Virus record (IMG/VR): IMGVR_UViG_3300032665_000158
Span: 1-27,145 of that record
Reading direction: 5' to 3' (one strand)
DNA length: 27,145 nt
Source: a virus
Below, piece by piece: positions 3,385-25,200 of the stretch; position 1 is the stretch's first letter, and every line of letters begins with the position of its first letter. The notes under the pieces are model-generated. The model saw only the letters and a list, made by a program, of their open reading frames with translations, ran no database searches and was not told the origin of the DNA. A program made the translations under genes and the position numbers.

Positions 3385-3396
3385 GGGGTGTCCTTA
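3381..3396 (-). repeat. 16-bp duplicated start region, copy 2
   Basis: Identical to the copy at 5199 to 5214. The two copies bracket the second spike gene, as expected if a spike cassette was inserted or duplicated here. Confidence 0.9.
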
Positions 3397-5202: not shown

Positions 5203-5214
5203 GGGGTGTCCTTA
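5199..5214 (-). repeat. 16-bp duplicated start region, copy 1
   Basis: TAAGGACACCCCATGA combines the stop of one gene, the ribosome site and the ATG of the next. It is identical to the copy at 3381 to 3396, the other end of the second spike gene. Confidence 0.9.
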
Positions 5215-7728
5215 GTTCGGAACATCCGACGGTGTGCGGCCTATTTCGTACCAATTAGTCCCGTTCCATCGGAAAGTAATGCTGCGCTGATTTCCGGCGG
5301 CCGGTGACGTCCACGCGGACATTTTGTAAGAACTTGACCAAGTTACCGTACCCAGAACGCCACCAGAAAGGTTTTTGATGATAATGGTCAGTGTCTGACC
5401 AAGGTACGGCACTGTTCCCAATACACCGTTTGTGGGGTTGGAAATGGTGAATGCCGTTGTGTTATTGGCCGAAATTTCAAACAGGCTTCCAATTGAAGCG
5501 TCAATCGTCACCGTTGGGCCGTACGTTGGGAAAGCTTGGCTAGTGATGACGTTGCTTGTGCCGTTGCCAAGAATTGATCCAGAAAGATTGACGACTCGGT
5601 TGCTGCCGTCGTACTGGATGTTTGTATAACTGGTGGCTGGAGACGCGCTCTGAGTGCAGACAACCGCACCCATCGTGGCGGCAGACAAAGACCTGTCTCG
5701 CAGGAACTGATTGTTCCGAATGTAAATGTCCGTAAACACCGCGCCGCTTGCCCATCCGGTTGAGTCTCCGAGCAGCGAAACCGCACCAGTCGAGTACGAC
5801 GTAAAGTCAGTCATCTGGACGGCAAGATTGTTTTCAATCACTACGTCCTTGTGAGACGCTGTGATTGATCCCTGCAACGCAACCGCGCAATTACAAGCGT
5901 AAAAAATGTTGTTAGCGATGCGAGCGCCGAGCAAACAAGTTAGATGCACGGCGTTCATCTGATACGGCGCGCTAATGGCGCTGCCAGATCGGAACAACGA
6001 CGAATCAAAATAGTTATTTTCAATGAGCAAGCCTTGCGTCAAAGTTGTCTGGCTGACACCGCTGACCTGCAAAATTGGGCAGAAAATGTGCGTAAAGTTG
6101 CCGGGCTTGGCCGAATCAAGGTTGGCCTCAAAGTAGTTGTTGACGATTCGCATACCGACCGTCTTGTAAATAATTTCTAGGCCGGTGCTGTTGTATCCAA
6201 AATAATTTCCGTCGATCACCGGCGAATAAATGACCTGAGTCACATAGTCGTCACCTATATACATGGCAGGCCAACAGTTTTTGACGAAATTGTTTCTGAA
6301 CGTAAAGTTTGTGCCGTGCATTTCTGCGCCGCCACAGTTATTTAGAGCGTTTGACGTGTTGTAAAACTTGCTGTTCTCAACAATGCAATTTGCAGCTTGC
6401 AAATAAATAAACGAAAAGTCTGCGTTTAAGGCCGAATTGCCCGTCATGTTGGGGCCGCAATCTTGGAACCAACACGAACGGATGACGATCGGTGCGCCGC
6501 TACCGCCGCTAGAGTCGCAAATCATGTTGGTGCAAGGAGCTTGCACCGAATAAATGCGCTCAAATGTCACGCCGCCCGACACCGTTCTGGCAACGTAGGC
6601 ATAGTCATTTGATGCCTGCTGAACAATGCCGCCCCACGCGACCGAAAAATCGCGCAGATACTGATTGGTTTGGCCGCTGCGGAATCCTATGACATGGGTT
6701 CTGTTCGCGCCGCTAGCGTACATACCGGATCGAGCGGCACTCCGAATATTGAGAATTGTTGCAAACTGATCCGCGCCAGCCAGTTCAGTATTTGACGGGA
6801 CGCAAAAACACGCTAAACAGTTTGTTGAATAGAACGACGACGTATCCCAAGTGTCAAACGAAAACGTCCCTGTTGGAATTGTAATTCTTGCGCCGCCTGC
6901 CGCAGACGCATATGCCATAGCAGACCTGAATGCCGGCCCACTATCATTCGTTCCCGTCGGATCCGCACCAAAGTCCAGAACGCTCACGCTCTCCTGCAAC
7001 TTGCTCGTCACCGTCCTCGATGTCGAGCCCGTGCCGCCTTGGGTGTAGGTGATGTGACTGGACGGCGCATTGACCGTCGCCACCCCCGTGGTCGGCACCA
7101 CCGTCACGTCGCCGCTCATGGTGAAGCCCTGCACCGAGCCACCGTTGTTATAAAGGATCTGGCCCGAGGTACCGCCCGCCACCATCGTCCCCATGGCTTG
7201 CGCGATCAGGTATTTGACCAACAGAATCTGACCGGCTTTAGCGCCCACCGTCAGGGTCAGCGTCGAGGGCGACGTCCACGTAAAGTCAACACCGTTGACC
7301 AGTGTCGCACCGTCTAACGAGACATCGAGCGCACTCTGCGAGCCGACGGTACCCGTGAGCGTAAAGACCGTCTGCCCCGCCGTTGCCGTAAACGTGTCGG
7401 CGTAGGCTGCCGAATATGCCTGGGACGGGATGGTGTAATTGTCGACCGTCCAGATCAGGTTGCCCGACGAGTCTTGCACGACGATCTTGTAGGCGATCGT
7501 GGTCGAGAACCACACCGAGCAGCTCGCGCCCGACGCATTCGCCGTCTCACCGCGGGCATTCAGGATGATCGGATTGGTGAGCGGGGTCGACCCCGTGGCG
7601 TCCGTGTACGTCGCTGCCGGGGTCGTGGTGCCGGCGTAGTACGTGTACACCTTGCCGCCGACCAACGGATTGTTGTTGTTGTCCGCGAACCGCCAGACGG
7701 GTACGTAGGACGAAGTGACTGTGGTCAT
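5212..7728 (-). CDS. Tailspike with beta-helix body, probable polysaccharide-binding or depolymerase
   Basis: The 838-aa protein has a head-binding module (residues 20 to 62: AGTTTPAATYTD), a beta shaft to about 225, the module SKLQESVSVLDFGADPTG near 240 to 260, and then a long right-handed beta-helix with many NNxF/Y repeats (such as VIENNLAVQ, IRNNQFL, IENNYFDSS). A C-terminal beta domain follows. This is the architecture of capsule- or LPS-degrading tailspikes; catalytic residues cannot be placed by eye. The ATG has a GAGG site 5 bases upstream; the longer open frame before it is not used. The body is AT-richer than the head-binding end. Confidence 0.85.
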   Translation of the reverse strand: MTTVTSSYVPVWRFADNNNNPLVGGKVYTYYAGTTTPAATYTDATGSTPLTNPIILNARGETANASGASCSVWFSTTIAYKIVVQDSSGNLIWTVDNYTIPSQAYSAAYADTFTATAGQTVFTLTGTVGSQSALDVSLDGATLVNGVDFTWTSPSTLTLTVGAKAGQILLVKYLIAQAMGTMVAGGTSGQILYNNGGSVQGFTMSGDVTVVPTTGVATVNAPSSHITYTQGGTGSTSRTVTSKLQESVSVLDFGADPTGTNDSGPAFRSAMAYASAAGGARITIPTGTFSFDTWDTSSFYSTNCLACFCVPSNTELAGADQFATILNIRSAARSGMYASGANRTHVIGFRSGQTNQYLRDFSVAWGGIVQQASNDYAYVARTVSGGVTFERIYSVQAPCTNMICDSSGGSGAPIVIRSCWFQDCGPNMTGNSALNADFSFIYLQAANCIVENSKFYNTSNALNNCGGAEMHGTNFTFRNNFVKNCWPAMYIGDDYVTQVIYSPVIDGNYFGYNSTGLEIIYKTVGMRIVNNYFEANLDSAKPGNFTHIFCPILQVSGVSQTTLTQGLLIENNYFDSSLFRSGSAISAPYQMNAVHLTCLLGARIANNIFYACNCAVALQGSITASHKDVVIENNLAVQMTDFTSYSTGAVSLLGDSTGWASGAVFTDIYIRNNQFLRDRSLSAATMGAVVCTQSASPATSYTNIQYDGSNRVVNLSGSILGNGTSNVITSQAFPTYGPTVTIDASIGSLFEISANNTTAFTISNPTNGVLGTVPYLGQTLTIIIKNLSGGVLGTVTWSSSYKMSAWTSPAAGNQRSITFRWNGTNWYEIGRTPSDVPN
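6952..7041 (-). repeat. Spike linker module, copy 1
   Basis: Thirty codons, from QGGTG to SKLQESVSVLDFGADPTG, nearly identical to the copy at 5068 to 5157. This is the entry to the beta-helix, and base composition drops just beyond it. Confidence 0.9.
7543..7671 (-). repeat. Head-binding module, copy 2
   Basis: Encodes residues 20 to 62 of the large spike and aligns without gaps to the copy at 9112 to 9240 in the first fibre gene. Confidence 0.85.
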
Positions 7729-7735
7729 CGAAACC

Positions 7736-8308
7736 TCAGACGAAGTTAAAAATGATGAGGCCGTCTTGGCCGGGGCTATTGGCAATGGTGAAAGTGCCGT
7801 TGCCGCCGGAGGTGCCGGTGCCGTAGACGCCGACCACGCCGTTGCCGCCGGCGCCGGTGCCGGAACCGTAGCCGCCGCCGGGCTGCCCGGCGTTACCGGC
7901 AAGATTGGCGGCCGTGCCGCCCGTCGCTGCCGCACCCGCCACGCCACCAATGCCGTCAGCAGCAAAAGTACCCAGACCACCGTTGCCTCCCACGGGGGCG
8001 CTCATGGCCACCGTTGTCGAGAACGTCGCATTGGTCACGGTCGAGGCCGACGAGGCCGCATACCCGACCACCGCCGTCAGCGTCTGGCCGTTATTGGCCG
8101 CGACCGAATAGACCGACCGGCAGTAACTGCCCGACGCACCGCCGCCGCCTTGGCTGCCCCCTCGAGGGACGCCGTGGCCACCGTAGCCGCTCGCCCCCCA
8201 GCACTCGACGGTCATGGTCGAGGCGCCCGAGGGGATGGTGACGGTGTAAGTGCCGTGCGTGCTGTAGACGGTCTGCGTGGGCGAGAACACCACGTTCGGG
8301 TCGGCCAT
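7736..8308 (-). CDS. Glycine-rich tail fibre protein
   Basis: The 190-aa product opens with PTQTVYSTHGTYTVTIPSGASTMTVECWGASGYGG, the signature of phage glycine-rich fibre domains, and continues through long Gly/Ala/Ser repeats to the end strand GQDGLIIFNFV. Such domains form polyglycine-helix tips that contact the receptor, as in S16-like adhesins. I chose the ATG at 8308 because it has a GAGG ribosome site and a normal 20-base gap; a GTG at 8359 would overlap the previous gene. It lies 7 bases before the next spike gene, so the three adhesin genes form one unit. Confidence 0.78.
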   Translation of the reverse strand: MADPNVVFSPTQTVYSTHGTYTVTIPSGASTMTVECWGASGYGGHGVPRGGSQGGGGASGSYCRSVYSVAANNGQTLTAVVGYAASSASTVTNATFSTTVAMSAPVGGNGGLGTFAADGIGGVAGAAATGGTAANLAGNAGQPGGGYGSGTGAGGNGVVGVYGTGTSGGNGTFTIANSPGQDGLIIFNFV

Positions 8309-9459: not shown

Positions 9460-11502
9460 TTACTTCGGTTCCTCAAAGCCACCAGCCAACGGCTTGGTGG
9501 TCTGCTGCAATTCCTTGCCCTTGTTGATCATCTGCCAACCCTTGCGACCCAACGACGCAAGGCCGCCGGTCTTGGCGTCGACCATCGTGGTCGCCAGATT
9601 GCCCGCACCTTCGGCCAGCGCACCCGTGAGGGTGTTGCTGTTGTTGATGACGTGACCGACCGGCTGCGCTTTGACGTAGCGCGAGACATTCCCAAGCGTT
9701 TGCAGGGTCTGCGATTCTTCGCCGGGCAGCAGGTGTTGCATCTTGGGCGACAAGGCTTCTAACCGCTTGTTGAACCGCGCTTGGTTAAACGCGTTGTTGC
9801 CCTGCGAGTCGATCCCGGCAGCCGTGCGTAGATCGTCCAACGTCGCCACGCCCATCGTTTGCAGCGCCCGATCGTTGTTGCCAAGGTTCTGGCGCATCAG
9901 TGCCACCTGATCGCGGTTGCCGCCGGTGACGAATTTCGGGACGAACTTGTCCGGTGGCACCGTGTCTTCGACCGCTGCTCGGTAGGCCGGGTCGGCTTCC
10001 AGTGCCTCAAACCGGCTGCGAGCGGCTGAACGAGCCGCGTCGGCCAACGGCTTCAGCTCGGCGGCCTGACCTTTAAGCGGCAAGTCCTCGAGCTGCTGCC
10101 GAATGATCGACGCCGCGGCCCGAGCGTTGCCGCTGGGGTTGTCGCGGGCTTCGCTCGCGAGGTTCGTCCGCATGGCTTCGAACTGCTCGAACGACATCGG
10201 TTCGCCGCTTTCAAAGGCTTTCAGATCCGACTCAATGCCAGCCGGCACAAAGTTGCTCTTGAGGCTTTTCTTGAGCGCCGCCCGGGCGTTCTCGGCAAAC
10301 GTCTGCCCGTCGACCGGAAAATTGCCGCCAGCGGCATCGTTGAGCGCCTGATACTTGGCGTTGATGTCGGCGACGATCGGGGCGTCGTGATCCTTGTACG
10401 CCTGAATGAGCGTGTCGCCATGCTCGGTGGCGTTGGTCGTGAATACGTCGGGGCCGACCTGATCGCGCAGGTGCTGCAAGTTCGCCTTGAGCGCTTCGTC
10501 CTGGGCGTTGTGGAAATCGCCTAAGCCTGTCACGCCGCGGCGATTCATCTCGCGAGAAAGAATGGCGGGGCTTTGAGTCGCCTGACCTTCGGTAAGACGA
10601 ATCGGTACCGGGAGCGAATCGGCTTCGGCGTGGCGCGACAGCACTTCGGGCTTCGGAGTCTGCCCCTGCGCCACGGCGGCTCGATAGGCTTCCTGCAAAT
10701 CGGGGCTTGCAGCCACCACGTTGCCACCCGACGCCGACGCGGCACCCATCGAGGTCGGCTGTTGCGACCAATGGGCAGCACCTTGGGTCAGCGACGGAGC
10801 GATACCGCCTAGGCCACCTCGAGCCATCGAAGCATTGGCGCCCAAGGCTGCCCCTGCTCGATTAATCACAGGGCCACCCACGACGCCGCCGAGGACGTTT
10901 CCGGCGGTTTCCGTCGAACTGGCCGATGGGGCAAGTAGGCCAACACCGCCGCCGATCAGGGCGCCACCGAGAGCGGTGTTTGCGCCGGGGATCATAGCAG
11001 CGGGTGCATACGCAACCCCGCTGCCGACCAAGTTACCCAGCTTACCGGCTGGCGTGGCAAGCAACGGTTCGGCCAATTCGCGGGTGTTCTTGACGTCCTC
11101 GCGAGAGACCGTGCCTAGAACCTGACCGATGCCTTGCAACGCCGAATTCATTCCGTATCCCGCGGCGGCCAAAAAGCGATACGGCGTTTCGGGGATGTGA
11201 ATGCCGGTGTCGTAGCCGGCCACATTGAGGTTACCGCCACCCGCAGTGGGGTCGTTCGGATAGACCTTCGGCGGGGCTTTCGGGCCTACACCGAAGTCAA
11301 GCCACGGCAACTTCAAGTTGCCATGAGCAAACTGCTCTTTGCTTTCGCCCGTCAGCCGATCGCTCTTGGGCTTGTCTTGGGGGGCGTACGCCGCCGCAAG
11401 GGCATCGGCATCGGGATCGCCCGAAGGCTTGGATGATTTCGAGCTGCTCTTGGGCGTGCTGGCATACGCAAGCGTCAGCGCGGCATCATCTGCATCACTC
11501 AT
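9460..11502 (-). CDS. Large internal virion / ejection protein
   Basis: At 680 aa this is the largest ejection candidate. The first 85 residues are low-complexity Ser/Ala/Lys. Residues about 110 to 235 hold Gly/Ala-rich hydrophobic stretches (ALGGALIGGGVGLLAP, VLGGVVGGPVINRAGAALGA) that could associate with membranes. The remaining two thirds are helical, with many charged residues. No lytic transglycosylase motif was found. The gene is the third in the ejection set. Its stop lies 10 bases from the end of a plus-strand gene, so transcription converges here. A GC-rich imperfect stem in its last codons (about 9480 to 9501) lacks a T-run. Confidence 0.65.
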   Translation of the reverse strand: MSDADDAALTLAYASTPKSSSKSSKPSGDPDADALAAAYAPQDKPKSDRLTGESKEQFAHGNLKLPWLDFGVGPKAPPKVYPNDPTAGGGNLNVAGYDTGIHIPETPYRFLAAAGYGMNSALQGIGQVLGTVSREDVKNTRELAEPLLATPAGKLGNLVGSGVAYAPAAMIPGANTALGGALIGGGVGLLAPSASSTETAGNVLGGVVGGPVINRAGAALGANASMARGGLGGIAPSLTQGAAHWSQQPTSMGAASASGGNVVAASPDLQEAYRAAVAQGQTPKPEVLSRHAEADSLPVPIRLTEGQATQSPAILSREMNRRGVTGLGDFHNAQDEALKANLQHLRDQVGPDVFTTNATEHGDTLIQAYKDHDAPIVADINAKYQALNDAAGGNFPVDGQTFAENARAALKKSLKSNFVPAGIESDLKAFESGEPMSFEQFEAMRTNLASEARDNPSGNARAAASIIRQQLEDLPLKGQAAELKPLADAARSAARSRFEALEADPAYRAAVEDTVPPDKFVPKFVTGGNRDQVALMRQNLGNNDRALQTMGVATLDDLRTAAGIDSQGNNAFNQARFNKRLEALSPKMQHLLPGEESQTLQTLGNVSRYVKAQPVGHVINNSNTLTGALAEGAGNLATTMVDAKTGGLASLGRKGWQMINKGKELQQTTKPLAGGFEEPK

Positions 11503-12877
11503 TTAGGCCACCGACATGATCGTGTGCGCGTTTGCGATTGATGAAATCTTTCGCCTGCTCGGGCGAGTCGAAATGACGCTTGAGGAATTCGGCACGATCT
11601 TGAGGACTTTTCAGCGCGTTGTAGGTATGCATGAGCGGATCGGCATCCGACATCAGCTTATCGTCCGCTTGCTGCAATCCACCGGCGTCCGGATGCTTCT
11701 TGAGGTAGTCCTGAGCCGACCGAGAGCGCACAAGGTTCTGGCGCATCGTCCCCTCGATACGATCCAACGCACGGGTAACCGTCGGTACGTCGGGGTTTTC
11801 GAGGTCGGGGAAGCTCTGGTCGATCGTCGACCGTTGAGCGTCCGTCGTAGCCGCAGAGCCGACCGACGTTTTGAGGTTGGCCATGTCCTTCTTGAGCAAG
11901 TTCCGAGCGGTGATCTCAGGCGACGAATCGCCGGCGGCTTGCGACGCCTTGAGAATCTGCTGACTGAAGCTGCCCTGGCTGATCTGCCGGGTGAGCGACC
12001 GCATTTCAGCGATTGTCGAGATGGCATTGTTCGACGGCGCAACGGCGGCGCTGATCTGGTTTTTGCGATCAATGTCGCCGCTGGCGGTGCCAGTTCCAGA
12101 CGCGGACGCCTGTGCCACGCGGCCGGCATATTCGGGCGTTTGCCACGGGGCCGTCGTTTTCTTGATGGGTTCGCCCGTCTGAGTGAAGCCACCACCGGCC
12201 AAAGCCGGGGCTCGAGTGCCGTTGATAATTTGACCGTTGGCGTCGACCTGAGCCGGTTGCGGGGTAGCCAAACCTTGCGGCCCGGTAAGCGCACCCTGAT
12301 CGAGGGCGCTACGCGCAACCTGCTGCCCAAACATTTTTTGATGTTGTGGGTCTGGATAGGTAGCCAACATCTTTAGCAAATTGTTTTTGACGTCAACGAC
12401 GCCGGGGTAATGATCCTTGCGCTCGTTCGACCAATTTTCCAATTGAGACGCCAAGTCTGACAGCGGCGCATCAGGATGAGCGCTCCATGCGCCGATGATT
12501 TGCTTACCTTCGTTCTGCAAGCCGGTGTCGAGGGCAAGATACGACTTCTTTAGATCCAGACCCTTTTGCAGGGCATCAAGCAGATTGCCCGCCTTCGGCA
12601 AGCCAAAGTTCGGGGCTCGCTGTAACAGCTGCTGAGTAAATGCGTCGGGATCAATGACCTGATTGCCCTTGCCGTCATCCTTCATCGGCGGGTTCTTGCC
12701 GATGTCGGAGATGGCTTGCATCTCCTGCGCCTGAATCTGCTGCTGCTTGAGCTGCTGCTGCTGAATCTGAAGATTCTGCTGCTGATTCTGAATTCCGAGG
12801 ATGTTGGAATACGTATTCAAGCCCGCATTCGGATCAGGCGGCTTAAACATCGTTCCGACAGGCGTCATATCTGGCAT
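11495..12877 (-). CDS. Probable internal virion / ejection protein
   Basis: The 460-aa product has a striking Gln-rich coiled coil at residues 31 to 55, then largely helical sequence with no enzyme motifs and no transmembrane segment. The size, composition and position between two other ejection candidates match the P22 gp7/gp20/gp16 style cluster. Residues 290 to 410 (IAEMRSLTRQISQ, later RNLLKKDMANLKTSV, RALDRIEGTMRQN) form a helical domain. A 43-base gap separates it from the preceding gene and only a weak ribosome site (AAAGAG) is visible. It overlaps the next gene by 8 bases. Confidence 0.65.
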   Translation of the reverse strand: MPDMTPVGTMFKPPDPNAGLNTYSNILGIQNQQQNLQIQQQQLKQQQIQAQEMQAISDIGKNPPMKDDGKGNQVIDPDAFTQQLLQRAPNFGLPKAGNLLDALQKGLDLKKSYLALDTGLQNEGKQIIGAWSAHPDAPLSDLASQLENWSNERKDHYPGVVDVKNNLLKMLATYPDPQHQKMFGQQVARSALDQGALTGPQGLATPQPAQVDANGQIINGTRAPALAGGGFTQTGEPIKKTTAPWQTPEYAGRVAQASASGTGTASGDIDRKNQISAAVAPSNNAISTIAEMRSLTRQISQGSFSQQILKASQAAGDSSPEITARNLLKKDMANLKTSVGSAATTDAQRSTIDQSFPDLENPDVPTVTRALDRIEGTMRQNLVRSRSAQDYLKKHPDAGGLQQADDKLMSDADPLMHTYNALKSPQDRAEFLKRHFDSPEQAKDFINRKRAHDHVGGLNE

Positions 12878-12920: not shown

Positions 12921-13811
12921 TCAAGTGCCGGGTTTGCCCAACAACCAGGGCAACGCGCTGCTGATCTGGCTGCCGATGGCGTTACCCGCCCCGGCGATGC
13001 CGGCACCGATGGCCGTACCGGTGTTGGTCATCGACTGACCGATGCCGTTGGCGAACGACGAAGCGCCCGTGGCTTGGTTGGACGCGGCCGACTGGCCGAG
13101 CTGGGCGACTTGGCCCAAGCGCTGATAAATGTTGCCTTGCTGCGTCTGGTACTGATTAAAGGCGTTGTTAAATGCCGTGTTCGCAGCGCCCTGATTGAAC
13201 GACATCAGATCCTTCTGAGCCGCACCCGACAACGCACCTTCGCCGGCAGCGTCACCGTTCAATACGCCTTGCTGTCCCTGCTGAAGCTGGAACTGGTACG
13301 CCGGGGACATCTGGTGGAACTGGTCGATCGTGAACGGGGTCAGCAACGAGCCAAAGCCACCCGGGCCAGACGAAGACGCCGGCGCCGCGGTCGAGGCGGT
13401 GCTTGATGGGGCGGCTTGCAATTGAGGGTTGCCGAGAAAGCCACCGGGGCCACCGGGGCCGTTCTGGCCGGTCGTTTGCATGTACCCGCCACCGCCATAT
13501 CCCCCGAGGCCGTGAGCGCCACCGCCGCCGCCGTAGTTGGGCGTGCTGGCAGTGGATTGTCCCGTCGGCGAGTTATAGCCGGGGATGCCTAGCAGGTAAT
13601 TGAGGTAGTTCTGCGCGCCGTAGCCAGACTGTACGTAGGGCGCCTGATTGGCGACCATCGTATTGAACATACCCTGTTGAGCATTCGTCGCCGCTTGTGA
13701 CGCGTCCGCTTGCTGACTCGATCCAATGATTGAGCCGATCGCGCTGACACCGCCGCCGATAAGGCCAGCACCCAAAATTGCGCCCGCTGTACCGCCGACG
13801 AGAGAACTCAT
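12921..13811 (-). CDS. Ejection (DNA transfer) protein
   Basis: The 296-aa protein starts with a Gly/Ala-rich hydrophobic segment (GGTAGAILGAGLIGGGVSAIGSIIG, residues 6 to 30) that could insert in membranes. A helical region and a Gly-rich linker (about 90 to 130) follow. The best signature is residues 158 to 240: LTPFTIDQFHQMSPAYQFQL, then a Gly/Ala/Ser stretch and FNNAFNQYQTQQGNIYQRLGQVAQLGQ, known from podovirus DNA-transfer proteins. These leave the virion with the DNA and help form the channel through the cell envelope. It is the first of three such genes in tandem and starts in an ATGA overlap with the cupin-SET stop. Confidence 0.75.
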   Translation of the reverse strand: MSSLVGGTAGAILGAGLIGGGVSAIGSIIGSSQQADASQAATNAQQGMFNTMVANQAPYVQSGYGAQNYLNYLLGIPGYNSPTGQSTASTPNYGGGGGAHGLGGYGGGGYMQTTGQNGPGGPGGFLGNPQLQAAPSSTASTAAPASSSGPGGFGSLLTPFTIDQFHQMSPAYQFQLQQGQQGVLNGDAAGEGALSGAAQKDLMSFNQGAANTAFNNAFNQYQTQQGNIYQRLGQVAQLGQSAASNQATGASSFANGIGQSMTNTGTAIGAGIAGAGNAIGSQISSALPWLLGKPGT

Positions 13812-14641
13812 TGCATACTCTCCAAATTAACTTTGAGCCCTTGTATGTAGTCCACGGTGATCTCCTCACCGTCGTGGCCTCCACAAGAACCCGTGATGTC
13901 TTTAATGGCAAAGACGCCGATGTCGTTGTTGGGCATTAGCACCATCTTCGCGTTCGGGTGCTTGCCGTGATTGATGTACCGACCGGCCGGCGTACGGTTC
14001 TGGCCGATCCGTCCCAGACAAATCATCTCGCCCTCGGCAATGCGAGCCGTGGCAAATAAGCCACGCCCTGCAATCGCCGAATTCGCGACCTTGCATTTGT
14101 AACTGCCGTACGGAAACGGGATGACGTCATCCGTTTGTGAGAAGTGCTGCACTTCTTCAGCCGTCAATCCGATTTCGCCCAGCACTCGCTCAAAGTCCTC
14201 GATGTCCTCAAGGCGCGGTGCTACCGGTTGCGCTTTAATCGCCTTCCAGTGGTCGGTCATGTCGAGGAACATCTCGTCGAGCTGCTCGACATCCCGACAG
14301 TCGGTCGAGTGGACGTTGACCCAGACGCATTCGTCGTGGGTGTACGCCATCTTTCGCCCAGGCTGACCAATCGACAGCCACGGGGCCGACAAGGTCGACC
14401 GGCTGCCGTCGGCGTTGAACATGGTCAACGTACCGCGCAACAGCAGGTTTAAATGATCGGTCTTGTGCGAATGCCCCATCATCAGACTCTGCGCCGGCAT
14501 GACGGCGTGGCGCATGTAGATGCCCGGGGCGAAGGTATGAATGATGTCGGCGTGAACTTGAGGGAGCGCGACCAGCTCCTTCTCGGCTTCGTTCATTAAA
14601 GCCGGGAAGGCGGCAATACGCTCGGCGATCTCACTCGACAA
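13808..14641 (-). CDS. Cupin-SET fusion, probable protein lysine methyltransferase
   Basis: This 277-aa protein joins two domains. Residues about 40 to 115 read as a cupin barrel, with the metal-site pattern GHSHKTDHLNLLLRG (56 to 70) and a second motif near YTHDECVWVNVH. Residues about 181 to 266 read as a SET domain: SAIAGRGLFATARIAEGE, then RYINHGKHPN (221 to 230, the NHS-type motif with Gly for Ser), and GEEITVDY (258 to 265), whose Tyr265 is the expected catalytic tyrosine. SET enzymes move a methyl group from S-adenosylmethionine to lysine. The target is unknown. The start is a TTG overlapping the previous gene by 11 bases; an ATG at 14596 would drop 15 residues. The stop forms ATGA with the next gene. 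Confidence 0.82.
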   Translation of the reverse strand: MSSEIAERIAAFPALMNEAEKELVALPQVHADIIHTFAPGIYMRHAVMPAQSLMMGHSHKTDHLNLLLRGTLTMFNADGSRSTLSAPWLSIGQPGRKMAYTHDECVWVNVHSTDCRDVEQLDEMFLDMTDHWKAIKAQPVAPRLEDIEDFERVLGEIGLTAEEVQHFSQTDDVIPFPYGSYKCKVANSAIAGRGLFATARIAEGEMICLGRIGQNRTPAGRYINHGKHPNAKMVLMPNNDIGVFAIKDITGSCGGHDGEEITVDYIQGLKVNLESMQ

Positions 14642-14971: not shown

Positions 14972-15313
14972 TCATTGAGGTACGAAAGTAAGTTGGGGAG
15001 TCGACGAGTAGCGAATAATCAGCGAGTCACCGGCCGAGACCGGGAAACAGCCCGCCGTCATCCCGGTCGTGTAATTGGTCGACCCGTTCCGGCTGAATTG
15101 GATGAGCGAGATCGTCCCGCCGTTCACGATCAAAAAACCGCGCTGCGGAGCCACGAAGGTGTACGGCGACTGCACCGGGGTGACCGCGTATTCGTTCGCC
15201 GGCGGGTTGCCGTTCAGCAACGACTTAAAGAAGAAATACCAGACCTTGTTGGTCTGCTTGCCCTCGGTCAGCGAGACCTCGAACGTCGGCAGGTTATTGG
15301 TCGCAACGGTCAA
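14972..15313 (-). CDS. Small virion-associated protein, unknown (TTG start)
   Basis: The 113-aa product starts at TTG, which overlaps the previous stop as TTGA and has an AAGGAG ribosome site 7 bases upstream, so this start is convincing. The sequence has an N-terminal segment with KVWYFFFKSLLNGN and then beta strands: YTFVAPQRGFLIVNGGTISLIQFSRNG and AGDSLIIRYSSTPQLTF. The second half resembles the small trimeric beta modules found in tail or fibre components of podoviruses. There is no signal peptide. The function is unknown; position between gp10-like and cupin-SET genes suggests a tail or head-completion part. Confidence 0.65.
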   Translation of the reverse strand: MTVATNNLPTFEVSLTEGKQTNKVWYFFFKSLLNGNPPANEYAVTPVQSPYTFVAPQRGFLIVNGGTISLIQFSRNGSTNYTTGMTAGCFPVSAGDSLIIRYSSTPQLTFVPQ

Positions 15314-17058
15314 GCCGCTTCTCCTTCGTTGGCCTCACCCTGCGCCCACAGCGTGGCACCCACGATGTCGCGAGGGACGGGATCGGTAAAGTTGAGTTCG
15401 AACACCCGGTCGCGAGCGCGGCCCAGTCGGCGCCACGTCGCACGGTTGCGGGTCTGGCCGACGAGACCGATGCTCGTCCAATGCTCGTTGCCCCAACTGA
15501 AGCCGCCGTCGTTCGACCACCGCAGCATGGCTTGCGGGTTGGCGCCCTGCCCGGTCTGTAGACCGACGCCGGGGGTGAATTCGACCTGAATGGCAGCCAT
15601 GAACACGCGCTGGCGGTTTTCACGCGACCAGACGTGCGGGGTGCGCCGTTGGCAGCGGAGGATGTTCCCCGCGTCGGTGTAGACCTGACGCGACATCTGG
15701 TGGATCTGGCCGGTCTGGTAGTCACCGACCAGTCGCAGATCCTGCATGTTCATGTAGCAGTTCGAGCGGTGGCGGTGGTAGACGCCGGCGGTGGAATCCC
15801 ACGACGCCCGCTGGTGCCACATCTTGGTGGTCGCGTCGAACACCCACGTCACGTCAGCGGTCGGGAAGGTCAGGACATAGAACATATGCCCCTCCTCCTC
15901 GTACGCGTAACCGATCGCGTCGGACACGTACGGGTAGCCCGAGATGGCGTGCTCGATCGCGTGGGTGCTGATGCGCTCCCATGTGTACTGATTGGTCGCC
16001 ACCACCATGTTCTCGCCCTGCTCATTGCGGGCAAGCCACACCAACGCCGGGCCCATGCGGGTGATCGAGTGCTTGGCCGAGCAGCCGATCTGCGGGCCGA
16101 CGCCGGGTAGGCGGCTGAACGCAAAGTTGGCGCCGCCCTGGTTAAACCACACCTCGCTCGTCCGCTCACCGATCAGCCACAGCTCGCGGTTGTTCTCGTA
16201 CAGCGTGACGAGGTTGTCGGTCGAGCTGTCTTTGAGCGCGTAGAAGGCGCCCGCGAAGCTGACCGTGTACGGCACCGGCGCGGTGGTGAAGAACGTGCGC
16301 GTCTGGGTGTTGTTGAAGATCAGCCAGCCTTCGATGAAGGCGACGCGATCGGCGGGTAGCCACGCCGGGTCGGTGATCTGCTGGAAGGCCGGCAGCGTGG
16401 CCGTCAGGGTGTCTGAGGTGCTGATGGTGGCCGTCGCGTTGGCCGACAGGGTCAACGTCAGGGCGTTGTAACTGACGCCCGTAATGGTCGTTCCGGCCGG
16501 TATTGCACCGCCCGAATCGCTGACGGTGGCGCCACAGATGAATTGGTAGTTCGGCGAGCCGGTGAAGGTGACTACGTTGCTACCGGCGGTCGTGGTGACC
16601 GTCGTGGTCGCCGTGCCGGCGCCGCTCAGGCGATACAGGTAGCCGTAGGTGCCGTCAACGATGACGGCGTAGCCGCCCAGACCGCCGAAAATGGCGCCGT
16701 TGTCGCGGATGCAGACCGGCCCCGAATTGGTGTTCAGCGTCCCGACCATCGCGGTTGAGAACTGAGCAATGCTCGACTGCGTGGCCGGCACCGTCATCGT
16801 GATGAGGTAGACCGTCGCGCCGACCACGGCAAGGGCCGTAGAACCGCCGGGAAGCACCCACAAGCCGCGAACGGGGCCTGTCTGGGTGCTGAGTATGGGA
16901 TTCAGGCCGGGGCAGCCCAGAAGCGCTATCGGCTCCTTGGCGTCCTTCTCGGCATCGATCTCGGGATACCAATTGATGAGCCGCTGGGCATCCTGCAACA
17001 GCATCGGGGCTTCGTAAGCACCCCCGACTAGGCCGAAATCAGCGCCCTCGTAACTCAC
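15310..17058 (-). CDS. P22 gp10-like tail hub / DNA stabilisation protein
   Basis: The 582-aa protein begins SYEGADFGLVGGAYEAPMLLQDAQRLINWYPEI, typical of P22 gp10-type proteins, which bind below gp4 as a hexamer and close the packaged head. Later blocks are ADRVAFIEGWLIFNN, NRELWLIGERTSEVWFNQGG and YPYVSDAIGYAYEEEGHMFYVLTFP, which read as beta-propeller blades. Residues 149 to 222 hold a Thr-rich module related to one in the upstream adaptor. I chose the GTG at 17058 because it forms a GTGA overlap with the adaptor stop and matches the family start; a TTG at 17082 would add eight unlikely residues. Confidence 0.87.
   Translation of the reverse strand: MSYEGADFGLVGGAYEAPMLLQDAQRLINWYPEIDAEKDAKEPIALLGCPGLNPILSTQTGPVRGLWVLPGGSTALAVVGATVYLITMTVPATQSSIAQFSTAMVGTLNTNSGPVCIRDNGAIFGGLGGYAVIVDGTYGYLYRLSGAGTATTTVTTTAGSNVVTFTGSPNYQFICGATVSDSGGAIPAGTTITGVSYNALTLTLSANATATISTSDTLTATLPAFQQITDPAWLPADRVAFIEGWLIFNNTQTRTFFTTAPVPYTVSFAGAFYALKDSSTDNLVTLYENNRELWLIGERTSEVWFNQGGANFAFSRLPGVGPQIGCSAKHSITRMGPALVWLARNEQGENMVVATNQYTWERISTHAIEHAISGYPYVSDAIGYAYEEEGHMFYVLTFPTADVTWVFDATTKMWHQRASWDSTAGVYHRHRSNCYMNMQDLRLVGDYQTGQIHQMSRQVYTDAGNILRCQRRTPHVWSRENRQRVFMAAIQVEFTPGVGLQTGQGANPQAMLRWSNDGGFSWGNEHWTSIGLVGQTRNRATWRRLGRARDRVFELNFTDPVPRDIVGATLWAQGEANEGEAA
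16393..16614 (-). repeat. Beta-module insert, copy 2 (in gp10-like gene)
   Basis: This stretch encodes residues 149 to 222 of the gp10-like protein. The pattern AIPAGTTITGVSYNALTLTL then SANATATIST matches copy 1 in the gp4-like gene. It lies between YLYRLS and FQQITDPAWLPADRVAF, which are normally adjacent strands in the family. Confidence 0.7.
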
Positions 17059-18014
17059 GCGAAGCCGCCGTGCATGATCCAACCGGCGTCGGTGCGGCGA
17101 CTGCGGACGATGTCGCGGTCGAAGAAGGCTTCGACGTCCGGAATCTCGTTCAACGCTTTAATCGCTGCCTTCGATTCCATCGCTTGCTTCACCAGCAACG
17201 CCCCGGCGGTCTTGCCGTACTCGGGGGCGAGCTCGAGGGCGAGGTTTTTCTTGAGCGCTCGCGCAAAGCCTTGCGGGAGATTGATCGCCTGATTGACGTT
17301 CGCGAAGTCCGTCAGGATCGTGTCCGTCCACAGGTGCAACGAGCCCGCTTGCGACGGATTGGGGTAGAAATACAGGTTCCCGATCGGGTACGTCGGGTCG
17401 TAATAGCACAGGATCGGCCACGGGCCGGCCAGACCTTTGAGGCCAATGGCGGTGTACTTGTCGCGACCGACGATGTCGATGGGGTAATCGAGCCCGGTGT
17501 TACCGCTTGAGGTGATGCGGGTGAACGCGTTCGTGATCCGCAGCGGGCGGCCAATGGGGAAATTGCCCGGGGTCGTGTAGGTGATCGTCTCGGCCGCCGA
17601 CACCGTCGCCGTCGCATTCGCCGACATGGTCACCGTGTTGGTGCCGATCGACAGGATGGTGGTGCCGGAGGGGATCGCCGACTGCACGTCGGTGAGCGTG
17701 CCGCCCACGACGAGGTTGGACGGGATGGTCACGCCCGAGATAGTGGGTGAGCCGCTGACGAGGGTACCGGTGAACGTGCCGCCGACGGGGTTGCCGACGG
17801 TGTACTGGTATTGCCCTGGCGTAAAGGTGAGGATGTTCTCAACCGACGAGAAGATCATCAGCTTGTCGATCGACCACGCCTCGATGAGGTCGTTTAGGAC
17901 CATCAGGGCGTCAGCCGCGTCTGCGGCGCTCGGGGTTTCGCCGGCTTCCAATGCGTTGATGTTACGCAACGCGCCGGTGATGATGTCCATTGCGGTGGTG
18001 CTGTTTGCAGCCAT
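17055..18014 (-). CDS. P22 gp4-like head-to-tail adaptor with inserted beta module
   Basis: This 319-aa protein resembles P22 gp4-type tail accessory factors, which bind the portal after packaging and extend the channel. The helical N-terminus (MDIITGALRNINALEAGETPS, then ALMVLNDLIEAWSID) and the later segments RPLRITNAF, GNLYFYPNP, LPQGFARALKKNLALELAPEYG fit the family. Residues 77 to 148 look inserted: a Gly/Ser/Thr beta module ending IPSGTTILSIGTNTVTMSAN. The gene 3' of this one carries a related module. P22 gp4 itself is about half this length; longer homologues are common. The start is coupled to the previous stop and the stop overlaps the next start as GTGA. Confidence 0.85.
   Translation of the reverse strand: MAANSTTAMDIITGALRNINALEAGETPSAADAADALMVLNDLIEAWSIDKLMIFSSVENILTFTPGQYQYTVGNPVGGTFTGTLVSGSPTISGVTIPSNLVVGGTLTDVQSAIPSGTTILSIGTNTVTMSANATATVSAAETITYTTPGNFPIGRPLRITNAFTRITSSGNTGLDYPIDIVGRDKYTAIGLKGLAGPWPILCYYDPTYPIGNLYFYPNPSQAGSLHLWTDTILTDFANVNQAINLPQGFARALKKNLALELAPEYGKTAGALLVKQAMESKAAIKALNEIPDVEAFFDRDIVRSRRTDAGWIMHGGFA
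17571..17786 (-). repeat. Beta-module insert, copy 1 (in gp4-like gene)
   Basis: This stretch encodes residues 77 to 148 of the adaptor. It shares the pattern IPxGTTI-x(5 to 6)-NxxTxT-x-SANATAT-x-S with the second copy at 16393. It interrupts an otherwise continuous family sequence between a YTVG strand and GRPLRI. Confidence 0.7.
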
Positions 18015-19240: not shown

Positions 19241-20548
19241 TTAGCCGGCGATCTTGACGCCCAGTTCCGGATAGAGCGAAGCCCATCCGTAGAGCACGTC
19301 AAAGCGGGTGGGCAGGGCATCGTTGTTGATCGTGTACTGACGAACAACGCGGAAGTTGATACCTGCTTCCTCGTCGACCGCACGCGCGGCCATATCGACG
19401 CCGCCCGGCAGATCGAGGTCGGCGAACGCCAACGCCAAGCAGTCGCGGTGCATCGCAATGTTCTGCGGCGACACCGTGCCGGCATAAGCGCCCGACGCCG
19501 AGCCCCAGACCTGAATCGCGGCGTTGCTCGCAGGCTGCGCCGTGACGTTCTGGAACTGGCCACCGTAGATGCCCGCGTTCTTGACGTAGAAGTCGAGAGC
19601 GCCGCCCGAGGACGAGCTGTAGACACCGGTCGTGCTGTTGTACGTACCGTTCGACAACGTCGACGGCGGCGCAATAACGACGAACTGGCGCAGACGGTTG
19701 GAGCCGTACGCACCGCGGTTCTGCGGGTTGGCCGAGTACACGCCGGCGACGGTGATCACGTCGCCAACGGTCAGGCGAGCCGCCGCCGAAGCCGTCCAGC
19801 CCGTGGACTGGATAAGACCCGACGACGCCCAACCCGACGAGAGCCACGCGCTCGAGGTGTTGTTCGACAAGGTCGGCGTACCGCCCTGGGCGCCCACCGT
19901 GTAGGACACCACGTTCTGATCCATGTACCAGTCGAAGCCGGCGAAGTTCTTGGCGACCAAGCCCTTCTCGATCTGCTCGGCAACGCCCGATTGCGGGTTG
20001 AACAGGCCCTTCACGGAGTCCTGCGCGTACGCCATGCTGAACGGGTCAAGGATGACCACGCGCTCGCCATCGCGAGGCGCGGCTTCACCGTCGAGGATCG
20101 CGCCCGCGAGCGTGAAGCTCAGGAACGACGCCGGCGGCGTACCCGGGGTACCGACCGCGTTCGGGATGTTCTGGTACGCATACGTCGCGCCGTCGCGGTC
20201 GATCTTGTTCGCGACCGCGGCCACGGCCGGGTTGATGATGCGTTCCTTGAACATGTCGACGCTGGTCGCGAGGTCGGCCGTCGTGAACTGCACGTCGACG
20301 TGGAACTGGGTCGTGAGCGTGACCGGAATGTAGGTCTCGTTCGTGTCTTCCACGTTCAACGCCGGGCCGGTCGTACCGATGTAACGGGGCGGCTTGCGGA
20401 CGTTGACGGTGTAACCGACCTTGGCGCCCGACAGGGCGAATTGCGAGGCGTACTGGCGATTAACGTGATCGGCAAAGCACAGATCGTTTTCGAGGACCAT
20501 CAGGCCCTCGTTCGTGATCTGACTGATAGTCAGAAGGTTGTTAGACAA
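19241..20548 (-). CDS. Major coat protein, P22 gp5-like (TTG start)
   Basis: The 435-aa protein opens with SNNLLTISQITNEGLMVLEN, then FADHVNRQY and the strand KVGYTVNVRKPPRY, the hallmark N-terminus of P22 gp5-type coat proteins with an HK97 fold. The length also fits. Gly- and Ser-rich strands in the middle (about 215 to 340) would cover the inserted domain and outer face. The start is TTG, not ATG: an AGGAG ribosome site lies 6 bases upstream and the family N-terminus begins right there, while the next ATG (residue 17) would cut into the conserved helix. It lies 18 bases after the scaffold stop. The gene is followed by a GC-rich hairpin. Confidence 0.93.
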   Translation of the reverse strand: MSNNLLTISQITNEGLMVLENDLCFADHVNRQYASQFALSGAKVGYTVNVRKPPRYIGTTGPALNVEDTNETYIPVTLTTQFHVDVQFTTADLATSVDMFKERIINPAVAAVANKIDRDGATYAYQNIPNAVGTPGTPPASFLSFTLAGAILDGEAAPRDGERVVILDPFSMAYAQDSVKGLFNPQSGVAEQIEKGLVAKNFAGFDWYMDQNVVSYTVGAQGGTPTLSNNTSSAWLSSGWASSGLIQSTGWTASAAARLTVGDVITVAGVYSANPQNRGAYGSNRLRQFVVIAPPSTLSNGTYNSTTGVYSSSSGGALDFYVKNAGIYGGQFQNVTAQPASNAAIQVWGSASGAYAGTVSPQNIAMHRDCLALAFADLDLPGGVDMAARAVDEEAGINFRVVRQYTINNDALPTRFDVLYGWASLYPELGVKIAG

Positions 20549-21625: not shown

Positions 21626-23788
21626 CTATTCGGACCGTCGTTCCGCTTTTTCTGCGGACTTTTCGAGTTCTTTCGCCGCACGCCGGTTGTGTTCGGCCTC
21701 GGCGTGGGTGTTAAGCAGCTGCGTCGCGGCGTGGATCTCGGCCACGTCGTGCGCGGTGATGGACTTGACGTGCGTGTCGAACATTGAGGTGTGCGCCTTG
21801 GTCTGCACGTCCTCGCGCCGCACCCCGAGTTCCATCTGGGTGCGCTGCGTCTCGGCCTGTTCCTTCATCTGCAAACGCTGCGTCTCGCCCTGCTGGCGCA
21901 TCTGCTCGATGCCCGACTTGGTCTTGAGTTCCAGTTCGAGCGCCATGTGCGACTGCTGCATCTGTTGCAACTGCTGCTGTAGACCCTTAATCATCATCTG
22001 CGCCTTCGGCGGGATGTCAGAGTCCTTGTCGATCTGGGCGCCGGGGATCATCGCGGCCATGCGGTCAGCGATCGTGTCGGCGTCTGGGAAGTCCAGAGAG
22101 CGGACAACGACGTCACCCGCTACCTTGGCCGTCATCTCGCCGAGCGGCGTCGCCAAGAGCTCGAGCATGGCCTCCGCGGCCTCCTCGCGCTTGGTCTGGT
22201 AGCCCGGGCCGGTGTCGACCACGGTGTCGTACAAGCCGCCGGTGAGGTCGTTCTTGATCCGCACCACCGCTTGGGTCAGCGGGTCGCGGACTTTCTCGTT
22301 GATCGTGGTGGTGTCCGGCGTGCCATCGTCGCCGATGATGCGCTGGATACGCTGCGTGTCGTAGAAGTGCGGAATCAGGTCGCTGACGATCGCACCGATG
22401 TGCTTGAGCGAGCGGGTCAGGTTGTCGGCGAAGTCAAAGTGACTGATGTCCGACAGGCCCTGCCGGCGCTTGATCGCCAAGCCCGAGACCACTTCGCCCG
22501 GTGAGTCCTGACCCGGCTCGTGCGGCATACCCGCCACGGCCATAAAGTCGGACTGCGAGCCCTGTATCCACTGCATCAGCCCTTCGGCCGGCGCCATGGC
22601 CGACTGCCGTTGCGGCGGCGGCATCAGTTCGCCGTTCGGACCAGTGACCGGCTTGTACGGTAACGCGACGATCGGCTTGCGGTTGGCGTCGCGCCACGCC
22701 GCTTCGTGGCCTTCCATCTGCCCTTCGGCAATCAGCCAGGGCGCCTTCGGCTGGAGCGCGGCCACCTCGGTCATGGTGGTCTGACCGTAGTTGTACATGC
22801 GAGCCGGGTCGCGCAGGTCGCGGATCATGCCCTTGCGGACGATCCGGCCGTTGAGATCCACCTCGCGGCCGTACACCGGTACGATGGGGATGTACTTGCC
22901 CGGCCATTCGCGGCGGTCGAGGACGGCCGTCGCCGAGAGCAAATACCATTCGACGAATTTACGCATCACCCGGCGGGTGCGGACGATCTCAATGCCGGCC
23001 GCTTCGAGGGTGTCTTCTTCGGGCAGCTCGTCGGTGAACTTGGTGCTGCCGTCCGAGAGCATGTGCAGCGTGTCCATCTTGCGGTGGACGCGCCAGTATT
23101 CGGCGACCCGGATCTGCTCCTTGGTGGCCCAGTCGGCGACCGAGTCACCCGAGCCCATGTACTGCCAGCCGAGCGGATCGACGTCGCCGTAGCGGACGCG
23201 GTACTCGTCACGGCGCATCATGTCCGAGACGATTGCCCAGGACGCGTCCGAGCCGTCCGGCATCGAACTCGTCGGGTCGAAATAGACAGTGAACGGGTTG
23301 CGGATCGGATCGATCGTCAGATCCTGATCGAACGAGCGCTCGTCGACGTAGCGGCTGCCGACGCGGATGTAGCCCCAACCGCCCCGCACGGCGCTCTCGA
23401 CCGCGCAGTCGTAGGCGTAATCGGCGCTCGAGGCCGACTCAATGTGCCGCATGAGCCCGTTGCGGACCTTGGCCGCCTGTACGTCGGCGCCGTCGCCCAC
23501 GGGGTGAAACTTGATCCGGGGGCGGTTCTCGCGCAAAGCGTTGGTCACCCGGCGCACCATCGCGTCGGTGATGTTGATCGTCAGGCACGGACGGCCGTCG
23601 GTGTCGCGGTCGCGGCGTATGTCGACCGGCCATTGATCGCCGTTGGCGAAGTTGATGTCGGTCAACGCCTCGGTGCGATTGGCGCTTTCGCTGTCCATCG
23701 CAAGCTTGTACCGCTCTTGGCACTCAACGATCAGATCTTGGTCGTTGGTGGCGGCTGAGTCCGAGGCGTACGCCATTAAGTCATCCAA
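21626..23788 (-). CDS. Portal protein, P22 type
   Basis: The 720-aa protein matches P22 gp1-like portals in length and layout. It has an N-terminal helical segment with INFANGDQWPVDIRRDRD and then RPCLTINITDAMVRRVTNALRENRPRIKFHP, typical of this family. A long central stem/wing region follows, and a Gln-rich C-terminal coiled coil starts near residue 600 (QQQLQQMQQSHMALELELK and beyond) that would form the barrel reaching into the head. As a dodecamer it would be the DNA channel and the docking site for terminase and the gp4-like adaptor. Two starts are possible: ATG at 23788, or ATG at 23776, which forms a TAATG junction with the terminase stop. A modest AGG site favours the first. Confidence 0.93.
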   Translation of the reverse strand: MDDLMAYASDSAATNDQDLIVECQERYKLAMDSESANRTEALTDINFANGDQWPVDIRRDRDTDGRPCLTINITDAMVRRVTNALRENRPRIKFHPVGDGADVQAAKVRNGLMRHIESASSADYAYDCAVESAVRGGWGYIRVGSRYVDERSFDQDLTIDPIRNPFTVYFDPTSSMPDGSDASWAIVSDMMRRDEYRVRYGDVDPLGWQYMGSGDSVADWATKEQIRVAEYWRVHRKMDTLHMLSDGSTKFTDELPEEDTLEAAGIEIVRTRRVMRKFVEWYLLSATAVLDRREWPGKYIPIVPVYGREVDLNGRIVRKGMIRDLRDPARMYNYGQTTMTEVAALQPKAPWLIAEGQMEGHEAAWRDANRKPIVALPYKPVTGPNGELMPPPQRQSAMAPAEGLMQWIQGSQSDFMAVAGMPHEPGQDSPGEVVSGLAIKRRQGLSDISHFDFADNLTRSLKHIGAIVSDLIPHFYDTQRIQRIIGDDGTPDTTTINEKVRDPLTQAVVRIKNDLTGGLYDTVVDTGPGYQTKREEAAEAMLELLATPLGEMTAKVAGDVVVRSLDFPDADTIADRMAAMIPGAQIDKDSDIPPKAQMMIKGLQQQLQQMQQSHMALELELKTKSGIEQMRQQGETQRLQMKEQAETQRTQMELGVRREDVQTKAHTSMFDTHVKSITAHDVAEIHAATQLLNTHAEAEHNRRAAKELEKSAEKAERRSE

Positions 23789-25200
23789 CCTGTGGGTGAT
23801 GGCATTTGGTGATTAAATGCCTGTGGTTTCTTGAACGATTTCGTCGTTGCAAAGCGGCGCATCATCATCGCGTAGCGCGTGGCGCTCATCAGGTCATCGT
23901 TCTCTTTGACGATGAGCCCTTCTTTGCGGTGATAGACGTTGAATTCTTCGAACCAGTTGCTCAGGTGTGCAAACACCTTGAAGCGACCGGTCTGCATTCG
24001 ATCGAGCAGCTCGGACACGCCGGCTTCTAAGCCGTTGGTGCCGTCCTCGAAGGTGGCGCGGACGCCAAGCATCTTTAAGCCTTGCGCCCGGTACTGCGCC
24101 ATCAGCTGCTCGCCCGAGCCCTTGTCGTGCTGTAGACCGTCGTGCGGCCACGACCAGGGCAACCAATCGCCCCACGGCTTGACCGCGGCGGCGAACATGG
24201 CCGGCGTCTGCTCACGCGCTCGGTGCGTCGCAATGACGTATAAACAATCGGCATCCCGATCCCATGCCATGCGGACGGCCGCCGAAGGGTGATCCCAACC
24301 GAAGTCCAGACCGCAGATCTGCGGCCAGTGCTGCGGAATCGGGAACGATTCACACTGAATCGCGCCCTGGGCGATCGGGAACACGCGGCCCGAGCCCATA
24401 GCCGGGATGCCTCGCGTACGGGCATCGCGCTCGAACTCGGGGTAGGACGCAATGATCGCGGCCTTCTGCTCGTCCGAGTAATGGCTCGCATCGTCAATCG
24501 TCATGGTCGTGACGGACGTGCCGGGGACTTTCTCAATGATGAACCGACGCACGACGTTCGACATACCCAACAGCGGGGTAAACGTCATAAACACCATGCC
24601 GTTCGTGGCGTTGGTGCGGGTCAGCCCTTCGATGTAGATGTCGCTGTCCGGCTCTTCGTCAAACCACACATAGTCCAGCGTTTCGCCCTGCCATTTCTCG
24701 CGACCTTTCTCATACGATTTAAGTGCGATTGTGGAGATGTCGCCGGTGGCATGGCGAACGCTGATCGTGTCGACTAGGTCGGCGATACCGCGGGTGTTGC
24801 TGTAGTCAACAATCGCCGTTTTCGGTATCGAACCGGTACCGAATTGCCCCGGGCGTCCCAGCAAAATGCGCTGGACGTTGTCTCGGGTGCTTTCTCCGGT
24901 GATGCCGGCAACCCAGCCAGTTGTTGCTCGATCCCATCGGCGGCCTTGCCACCAATCGGGATATTGTCCTGTGGCGTGCATGGCCACTTCCATGCCGGCT
25001 GACCAGGTCTTGCCGACTTGGTTAGCAGCCATGAGTAACCGCTCTCGGTTACTGGCTCCGGCGGCATGGAAGTCACGTTGCTTTTGGTACGGGCCGTACG
25101 ACTTCAGCCTCGATTGGCGCTTGCGTAAATCCGCTTCCTTCATCAGCGCGGATAGCAAGCTGGCTTCGTAAGAACTCGATGCCGGCTGTGAGTTGGTCAT
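23776..25200 (-). CDS. Terminase large subunit
   Basis: This 474-aa protein is the packaging motor ATPase and headful nuclease that drives DNA into the procapsid through the portal. The ATPase shows a variant Walker A, ANQVGKT (59 to 65), a Walker B, YVWFDEEPD (178 to 185), and a coupling motif at MTFTPL (205 to 210). The nuclease half begins with GLDFGWDHP (297 to 305), where Asp299 is the expected first metal ligand, and an acidic cluster (ENDD) lies near the C-terminus. The length fits P22 gp2-like terminases. The 25200 start has a GGAAG ribosome site; a later ATG at 25143 has none. The stop overlaps the portal start region. Confidence 0.95.
   Translation of the reverse strand: MTNSQPASSSYEASLLSALMKEADLRKRQSRLKSYGPYQKQRDFHAAGASNRERLLMAANQVGKTWSAGMEVAMHATGQYPDWWQGRRWDRATTGWVAGITGESTRDNVQRILLGRPGQFGTGSIPKTAIVDYSNTRGIADLVDTISVRHATGDISTIALKSYEKGREKWQGETLDYVWFDEEPDSDIYIEGLTRTNATNGMVFMTFTPLLGMSNVVRRFIIEKVPGTSVTTMTIDDASHYSDEQKAAIIASYPEFERDARTRGIPAMGSGRVFPIAQGAIQCESFPIPQHWPQICGLDFGWDHPSAAVRMAWDRDADCLYVIATHRAREQTPAMFAAAVKPWGDWLPWSWPHDGLQHDKGSGEQLMAQYRAQGLKMLGVRATFEDGTNGLEAGVSELLDRMQTGRFKVFAHLSNWFEEFNVYHRKEGLIVKENDDLMSATRYAMMMRRFATTKSFKKPQAFNHQMPSPTGWMT

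Follow-up and report, generated by a model that had tools for sequence, protein, structure and literature searches.

The presence of a SET domain in a phage cupin protein appears, from sequence comparison, to predict the first residues of the neighbouring gene's product, an ejection protein. This strong correlation concerns a cupin-linker-SET gene in the 27,145-base virus record IMGVR_UViG_3300032665_000158 of IMG/VR, the whole of which is referred to here as the window. The gene lies on the minus strand (13808..14641) and codes for 277 amino acids from a predicted TTG start, an alternative ATG standing at residue 16. It is followed by the gene of a gp7/gp14-like DNA-ejection protein of 296 amino acids (12921..13811, minus; PHROG_598, E=1.8e-17). 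The slot occupied by the cupin gene, the SET-dependent switch at the N-terminus of the next product and the N-terminus hypothesis that results from them are the new elements of this work. We tentatively propose that the gene may specify a protein methyltransferase that acts at assembly and is dedicated to the product of the next gene, the ejection protein.

The SET domain and the N-terminus of the downstream product

The comparison encompassed 253 phage loci, 103 with SET and 150 with the cupin only. In SET loci the next product begins with MS[G/A/S], residue 3 being Gly, Ala or Ser in 100 of 103, whereas in cupin-only loci it begins with M[S/T/A][W/F/V], residue 3 being Trp, Phe or Val in 148 of 150. 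Three mis-started rows (L118, L156 and L253) were excluded and six with a mis-read start were assigned by hand; the Fisher p of 3e-64 ignores relatedness and is not the basis of the argument. In the first set of loci, MS[GA] was found in 61/71 cupin-SET versus 1/72 cupin-only loci, and the lone locus of the latter group (L124) has in fact a SET domain. In later sets the pattern was present in 17/17 readable loci of a separate PH1-like SET clade and in 8/8 fusions from bacterial genomes. As a background, 23 of 1510 other genes of the same loci (1.5%) start with MS[GA]. The MS[G/A/S]-type N-terminus also heads unrelated partners. Some are ejection proteins of PHROG_598; others, in siphovirus-like loci, are J-type tip proteins of PHROG_31, with a J match that starts at residue 134. 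Siphovirus-like contigs where cupin-SET precedes lambda J-like tip proteins include L080:3747-6500, L067:3051-5813, L094:5143-7893 and L091:4051-7926, and at their N-termini these partners extend beyond the J match with a hydrophobic stretch rich in Gly.

On the cupin tree, SET presence and N-terminal class each change 8 times, and a Pagel-type test favours the dependent over the independent model (likelihood ratio 43.6, p ~8e-9). Comparison shows that the slot cupin gained SET on several occasions, and probably also lost it repeatedly. In most loci the end of SET is no more than a few bases away from the next start, and independent events are few. Both facts would suit an explanation by physical linkage, in which recombination exchanges the two adjacent segments as one, without any functional tie between them. 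We consider this explanation improbable. Where two ejection proteins are 60-89% identical in the part after residue 30, they share residue 3 in 0/73 SET-discordant pairs, as opposed to a fraction of about 0.9 in concordant ones. The closest pair joins L195, with SET, to L226, without it (cupins 92% and ejection proteins 81% identical). Here, synonymous divergence (pS) is even along the ejection gene (0.50/0.49/0.58), while non-synonymous divergence (pN) in residues 2-30 is double that of the body (0.25 versus 0.12). Uniform pS combined with an N-terminal excess of pN makes an imported recombination tract less likely. In another pair, L193/L218, divergence is higher throughout and no such N-terminal excess is present. 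The conservation of the N-terminus across cupin-SET proteins that are only ~40% identical, and across unrelated partners, also speaks against mere linkage.

The cupin-SET fusion and its virion operon

The cupin-SET fusion is real, because sequence motifs, Pfam and PHROG profile matches, AlphaFold2 models and Foldseek matches all agree. The original prediction had read GRGLFA, RYINHG and GEEITVDY as SET motifs fused to an N-terminal cupin, and these are indeed found in the minus-strand reading frame at residues 192-197, 221-226 and 258-265. The protein is a full-length member of PHROG_34170, which matches residues 14-271 (E=4.6e-68) and is listed in its database with unknown function and without domain assignment. 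The AlphaFold2 model, built with 39 relatives, reached a mean predicted local distance difference test (pLDDT) score of 92.8 and a predicted template modelling (pTM) score of 0.88.

The SET domain comprises residues ~178-270 (13832..14110, minus), as delimited by a Pfam match (PF00856, E=4.7e-9) and by an AlphaFold2 model of this part alone (pLDDT 91.6) that recovers the expected SET fold. All 50 PDB matches listed by Foldseek for the SET-only model are SET enzymes (TM 0.58-0.65), including MLL1 and vSET; a phmmer search of the PDB with a single cupin-SET protein gave no match, whereas profiles did. The signature motifs of PF00856 (GxG, (R/x)(F/Y)xNH and ExxxDY) are all found across 74 distinct relatives. 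G192 and G194 of the GxG motif (14060..14068, minus) are kept in 74/74, as are R221, N224 and H225 of the RYxNH motif (13967..13981, minus), which belongs to the S-adenosylmethionine (AdoMet) site. In GEEITVDY (13847..13870, minus), E260 is present in 74/74 and the catalytic-position Y265 in 73/73 complete rows, with position 264 being Asp in 68 and Asn in 5. Both halves of the protein are under purifying selection, the median ratio of non-synonymous to synonymous substitution (dN/dS) being 0.086 in the SET part and 0.074 in the cupin. Judged by these residues, the SET domain is quite likely catalytically active.

A different view would be that of a non-catalytic assembly chaperone, in which cupin and SET folds clamp the ejection-protein N-terminus and AdoMet is structural or absent. 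The cupin-only form is common and fills the same slot without any SET, and the covariation of the N-terminus is as compatible with binding as with catalysis. On the other hand, the residues of the AdoMet site and of the catalytic position vary little or not at all in the 74 diverse relatives and recur in independent SET lineages, and we regard a chaperone as unlikely.

The SET domain is nonetheless a reduced one. Only 8 residues separate the GxG block from the NHS block in the phage family, compared with 43 in MLL1, indicating that the SET-I insert is missing, and no Cys-rich post-SET segment is present in the family sequences. SET-I forms part of the substrate groove of histone enzymes; SET-I and post-SET define subfamilies of histone lysine methyltransferases, not the SET family as a whole.

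The cupin, a double-stranded beta-helix, spans residues ~30-128 (14258..14554, minus). The N-terminal half matches the phage cupin families PHROG_12032/24280 (E ~1e-22), and Foldseek retrieves PDB cupins with the whole model (E 2e-5; TM1459 and ectoine synthase) and, in BFVD, phage cupins (E 4e-11). The metal-site motif of the original prediction stands only in part. H57, H59 and H63 of a motif-1-like GHSHKTDH (14453..14473, minus) and H102 are present in the window, yet across the 74 relatives H57 is kept in 72 and H63 in 69, as against 30 for H59 and 46 for H102. The canonical motif-1 Glu is absent, so that a conserved 3-His/1-Glu site is lacking, and the position of H57 is Lys or Arg in the cupin-only relatives sampled. 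A role for the cupin as a metal enzyme, or in the oxygenase-type chemistry once suggested for it, was rejected because the metal ligands are not conserved.

Between the two domains, the model places a helical linker (residues ~129-177; 14111..14257, minus). All SET reading frames found in the phage and viral loci are fused to the cupin (129/129). Bacterial genomes also carry stand-alone linker-SET genes, as in Comamonadaceae and Rhodocyclales contigs (L336 and L337), and an adjacent, overlapping but unfused pair of cupin and SET genes in Paraburkholderia ferrariae (L338). The linker and SET hence constitute a mobile module. The L336 and L337 matches begin at query residue 148, implying that the linker travels with SET. 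The L336 gene adjoins what is probably a truncated cupin, as well as an ejection-like protein beginning with MSL.

In the window, the cupin-SET gene is placed within a P22-like virion operon, between the ejection gene and a gene for a head-closure Hc3/P22 gp10-like protein (15310..17082, minus; PHROG_578, E=5e-97). Its TTG start overlaps the stop of the preceding gene, and its stop overlaps the ejection-gene start in an ATGA (13808..13811, minus; offset -4). The genetic coupling to ejection genes noted originally is thus borne out, and the overlap makes translational coupling of the two genes likely. Searched by tblastn against phages, the window ejection protein gave no match. By position only, and with no PHROG or Pfam match, the two genes that follow are a probable second (gp20/gp15 position; 11495..12877, minus) and a probable third ejection protein (gp16 position; 9460..11502, minus). 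The window also holds a P22-like coat protein (19241..20548, minus; PF11651, E=9e-29), a P22-like portal (21626..23788, minus; PF16510, E=8e-166) and the terminase large subunit (23776..25200, minus; PF03237/PF17289). Elsewhere on the minus strand of the window are two tailspike-like proteins with pectate-lyase-type repeats (3394-5202 and 5212-7980; weak PF12708 matches below the curated cutoff), a phage lysozyme (2411-2830; PF00959, E=1e-10) and a DUF3310 protein (727-981; PF11753, E=4e-18).

A candidate substrate at the ejection-protein N-terminus

Sequence covariation between SET and the next gene start suggests that the partner of the protein is probably the N-terminus of the adjacent ejection protein, and chemistry at that N-terminus is put forward here as a hypothesis. 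The cupin would hold the hydrophobic N-terminal segment of the partner, corresponding to residues 1-30 of the window ejection protein (13722..13811, minus), a recognition or modification site proposed from N-terminal comparison. The cupin or the linker may supply a substrate wall in place of the missing SET-I, and SET would transfer a methyl group from AdoMet to the partner N-terminus. Position 2 of the partners is nearly always Ser, Thr or Ala, residues after which Met1 should be removed, and the most likely acceptor would be the alpha-amine exposed by this removal (Ser-Gly/Ala-...). The mark could then tune the solubility of the N-terminal segment, its packing in the head or its insertion into the envelope at infection. 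Special treatment of the termini has precedent in this class of proteins: a host protease removes 20 N-terminal residues from P22 gp7 before assembly (PMC4992974), and in phage Peru-2 membrane entry is predicted for the unresolved termini of the gp14-like protein (PMC13320782).

The preference for an alpha-amine stems from the scarcity of lysine in the partners. None of the 66 non-redundant SET partners has a lysine in residues 1-15, 21 of the 66 have none in the first 30, and one full-length partner (L083, 251 aa) has no lysine at all. The window ejection protein begins with MSS and a Gly-rich hydrophobic segment, its only lysines being K200 and K293. Given an active SET domain and an N-terminal partner, the alpha-amine is therefore, on balance, the more plausible target.

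A lysine methyltransferase, as originally predicted, would instead modify a side chain in the ejection protein (e.g. a Lys at ~25-28, just after the hydrophobic segment) or in some other virion protein. The canonical SET motifs stand, the closest folds are lysine methyltransferases, and many partners have ASK or AAK at residues 21-28. Nonetheless, the Lys-poor partners render lysine doubtful for this substrate, lysines near residues 20-30 are about equally common in cupin-only partners, and the residue-3 switch would be left unexplained, which makes this option rather unlikely. The target had also been sought in a virion protein or, should the enzyme be ejected, in an early host protein. The first proposal is here sharpened to the N-terminus of the next-gene ejection protein. 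As for the second, an enzyme ejected to methylate a host protein early in infection would fit a gene within the ejection operon. However, no sign of virion incorporation and no evidence for an ejected enzyme with a host target were found in this analysis, covariation with the neighbour would go unexplained and the cupin-only version would be devoid of activity. We deem it very improbable.

Several points weigh against methylation of the partner N-terminus. N-alpha-methylation by a SET enzyme would be unusual, and a neighbour whose N-terminus covaries with SET is not thereby proven to be its substrate. Truly independent SET/N-terminus events are few; a paired test restricted to well-supported (starred) branches had 3 pairs only and was underpowered (p 0.25-1). 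There are also exceptions to the pattern, with a large residue 3 despite SET in L153 (MSW), L042 and L095 (both MSV), and a small residue 3 without SET in L224 and L230.

Ejection (pilot) proteins build a conduit for phage DNA across the envelope. An enzyme encoded next to such a protein, and predictive of its first residues, offers a concrete and testable lead on the treatment of the hydrophobic segments ahead of infection. N-terminal methylation, if true, would give SET a new role outside chromatin. It would also account for hundreds of phage genes that lack annotation and put right the tail fibre naming of a cupin family that is widespread.

The slot before the ejection gene and known systems

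The cupin-SET protein has at least 334 relatives in IMG/VR and a PHROG of its own, and its supposed eukaryote-like rarity and sporadic occurrence were therefore rejected. The full fusion was found in 8 phage records, some of them duplicates (Rhodoferax P26218, Pseudoalteromonas PH1, zth2-2 and the Manatee Spring podoviruses), and the cupin without SET in ~38. In genome contigs, a single-protein scan gave no match and an alignment scan gave 24; a seven-sequence cupin alignment was too divergent for scanning. One GenBank entry of the family bears a vSET-derived name, and the cupin-SET fold is already implicit in databases. Two further occurrences were noted: a phage-like cupin-SET locus binned in a 'Candidatus Bathyarchaeota' metagenome-assembled genome (L328), which is better read as a mis-binned phage contig than as a gene of archaeal origin, and a tiny SET protein (~100 aa; weak match, E=6e-3) beside a gp25-like baseplate gene in cyanophage P-RSM6 (L015:1468-1767).

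The cupin gene stands directly before the ejection or internal-virion gene in P26218, VvAW1, PH1, Vibrio phages 234P9 and 1.067.O, Shewanella phage ZP9 and the Krylovirinae. With or without SET, it is the cupin that usually fills the slot before a gp7/gp14-type ejection protein. The names 'short tail fiber protein' and 'tail fiber adhesin' seem ill-suited to the phage cupin and are not supported by position; they are doubted on account of gene position and an enzyme-like fold only. No published account of a phage cupin-SET protein or of this slot was found in a literature search that left most subscription papers outside its reach.

Other small proteins occupy the same slot. In P22-like ST64T it holds gp14/DUF2824, and genes for GNATs, belonging to two families only and hence of low independence, precede M-G proteins in 14/14 readable loci. 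Small GNAT acetyltransferase genes directly before small M-G proteins with hydrophobic N-termini were observed at L007:7141-7927, L356-L359, L361 and L363-L371. In zth2-2, the protein encoded after cupin-SET begins with MSA and the one after a GNAT with MGG. The GNAT loci suggest an equivalent of the cupin-SET slot in which the N-terminus would be acylated. In one further locus (L034:2398-2847) the immediate upstream neighbour of cupin-SET is a GNAT gene (PF00583, E=1e-11). More speculatively, interchangeable 'N-terminus enzymes' might sit before genes for membrane-inserting ejection or tail-tip proteins, with the cupin matched to M[STA][WFV], cupin-SET to MS[GA] (N-alpha-methylation) and GNAT to M-G (N-terminal acylation), slot enzyme and client N-terminus co-evolving as a code needed for DNA ejection.

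Among characterized systems, vSET (PBCV-1 A612L, PDB 3kma/1n3j) and the MLL1 SET domain resemble the phage SET in fold and in the GxG, NH and ExxxDY motifs, and vSET is likewise a small viral SET domain. As opposed to both, the phage SET forms part of a cupin fusion, has no SET-I, carries in its main clade an extra GC-GG loop before GEEIT and is not expected to meet a histone substrate in its hosts. The PHROG_12032/24280 cupins of Vibrio phage VvAW1 and Krylovirinae SnaP-R1 are homologous and share the slot before the ejection protein, but lack SET and precede M[STA][WFV] instead of MS[GAS] proteins. P22 gp14 (DUF2824, PHROG_651, head morphogenesis) and the small GNATs are also small proteins directly before a gp7-type ejection gene, yet have no detectable homology to cupin-SET. 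With regard to the chemistry, two analogies can be drawn. Type IV pilins carry an N-methylated alpha-amine on a hydrophobic N-terminal helix; PilD, which methylates them, is not a SET enzyme, unlike cupin-SET. The SET-type SSMT has been linked to the Rubisco small subunit. There, too, the mark is reported to be on the alpha-amine, the responsible enzyme not being established (PMC3991674).
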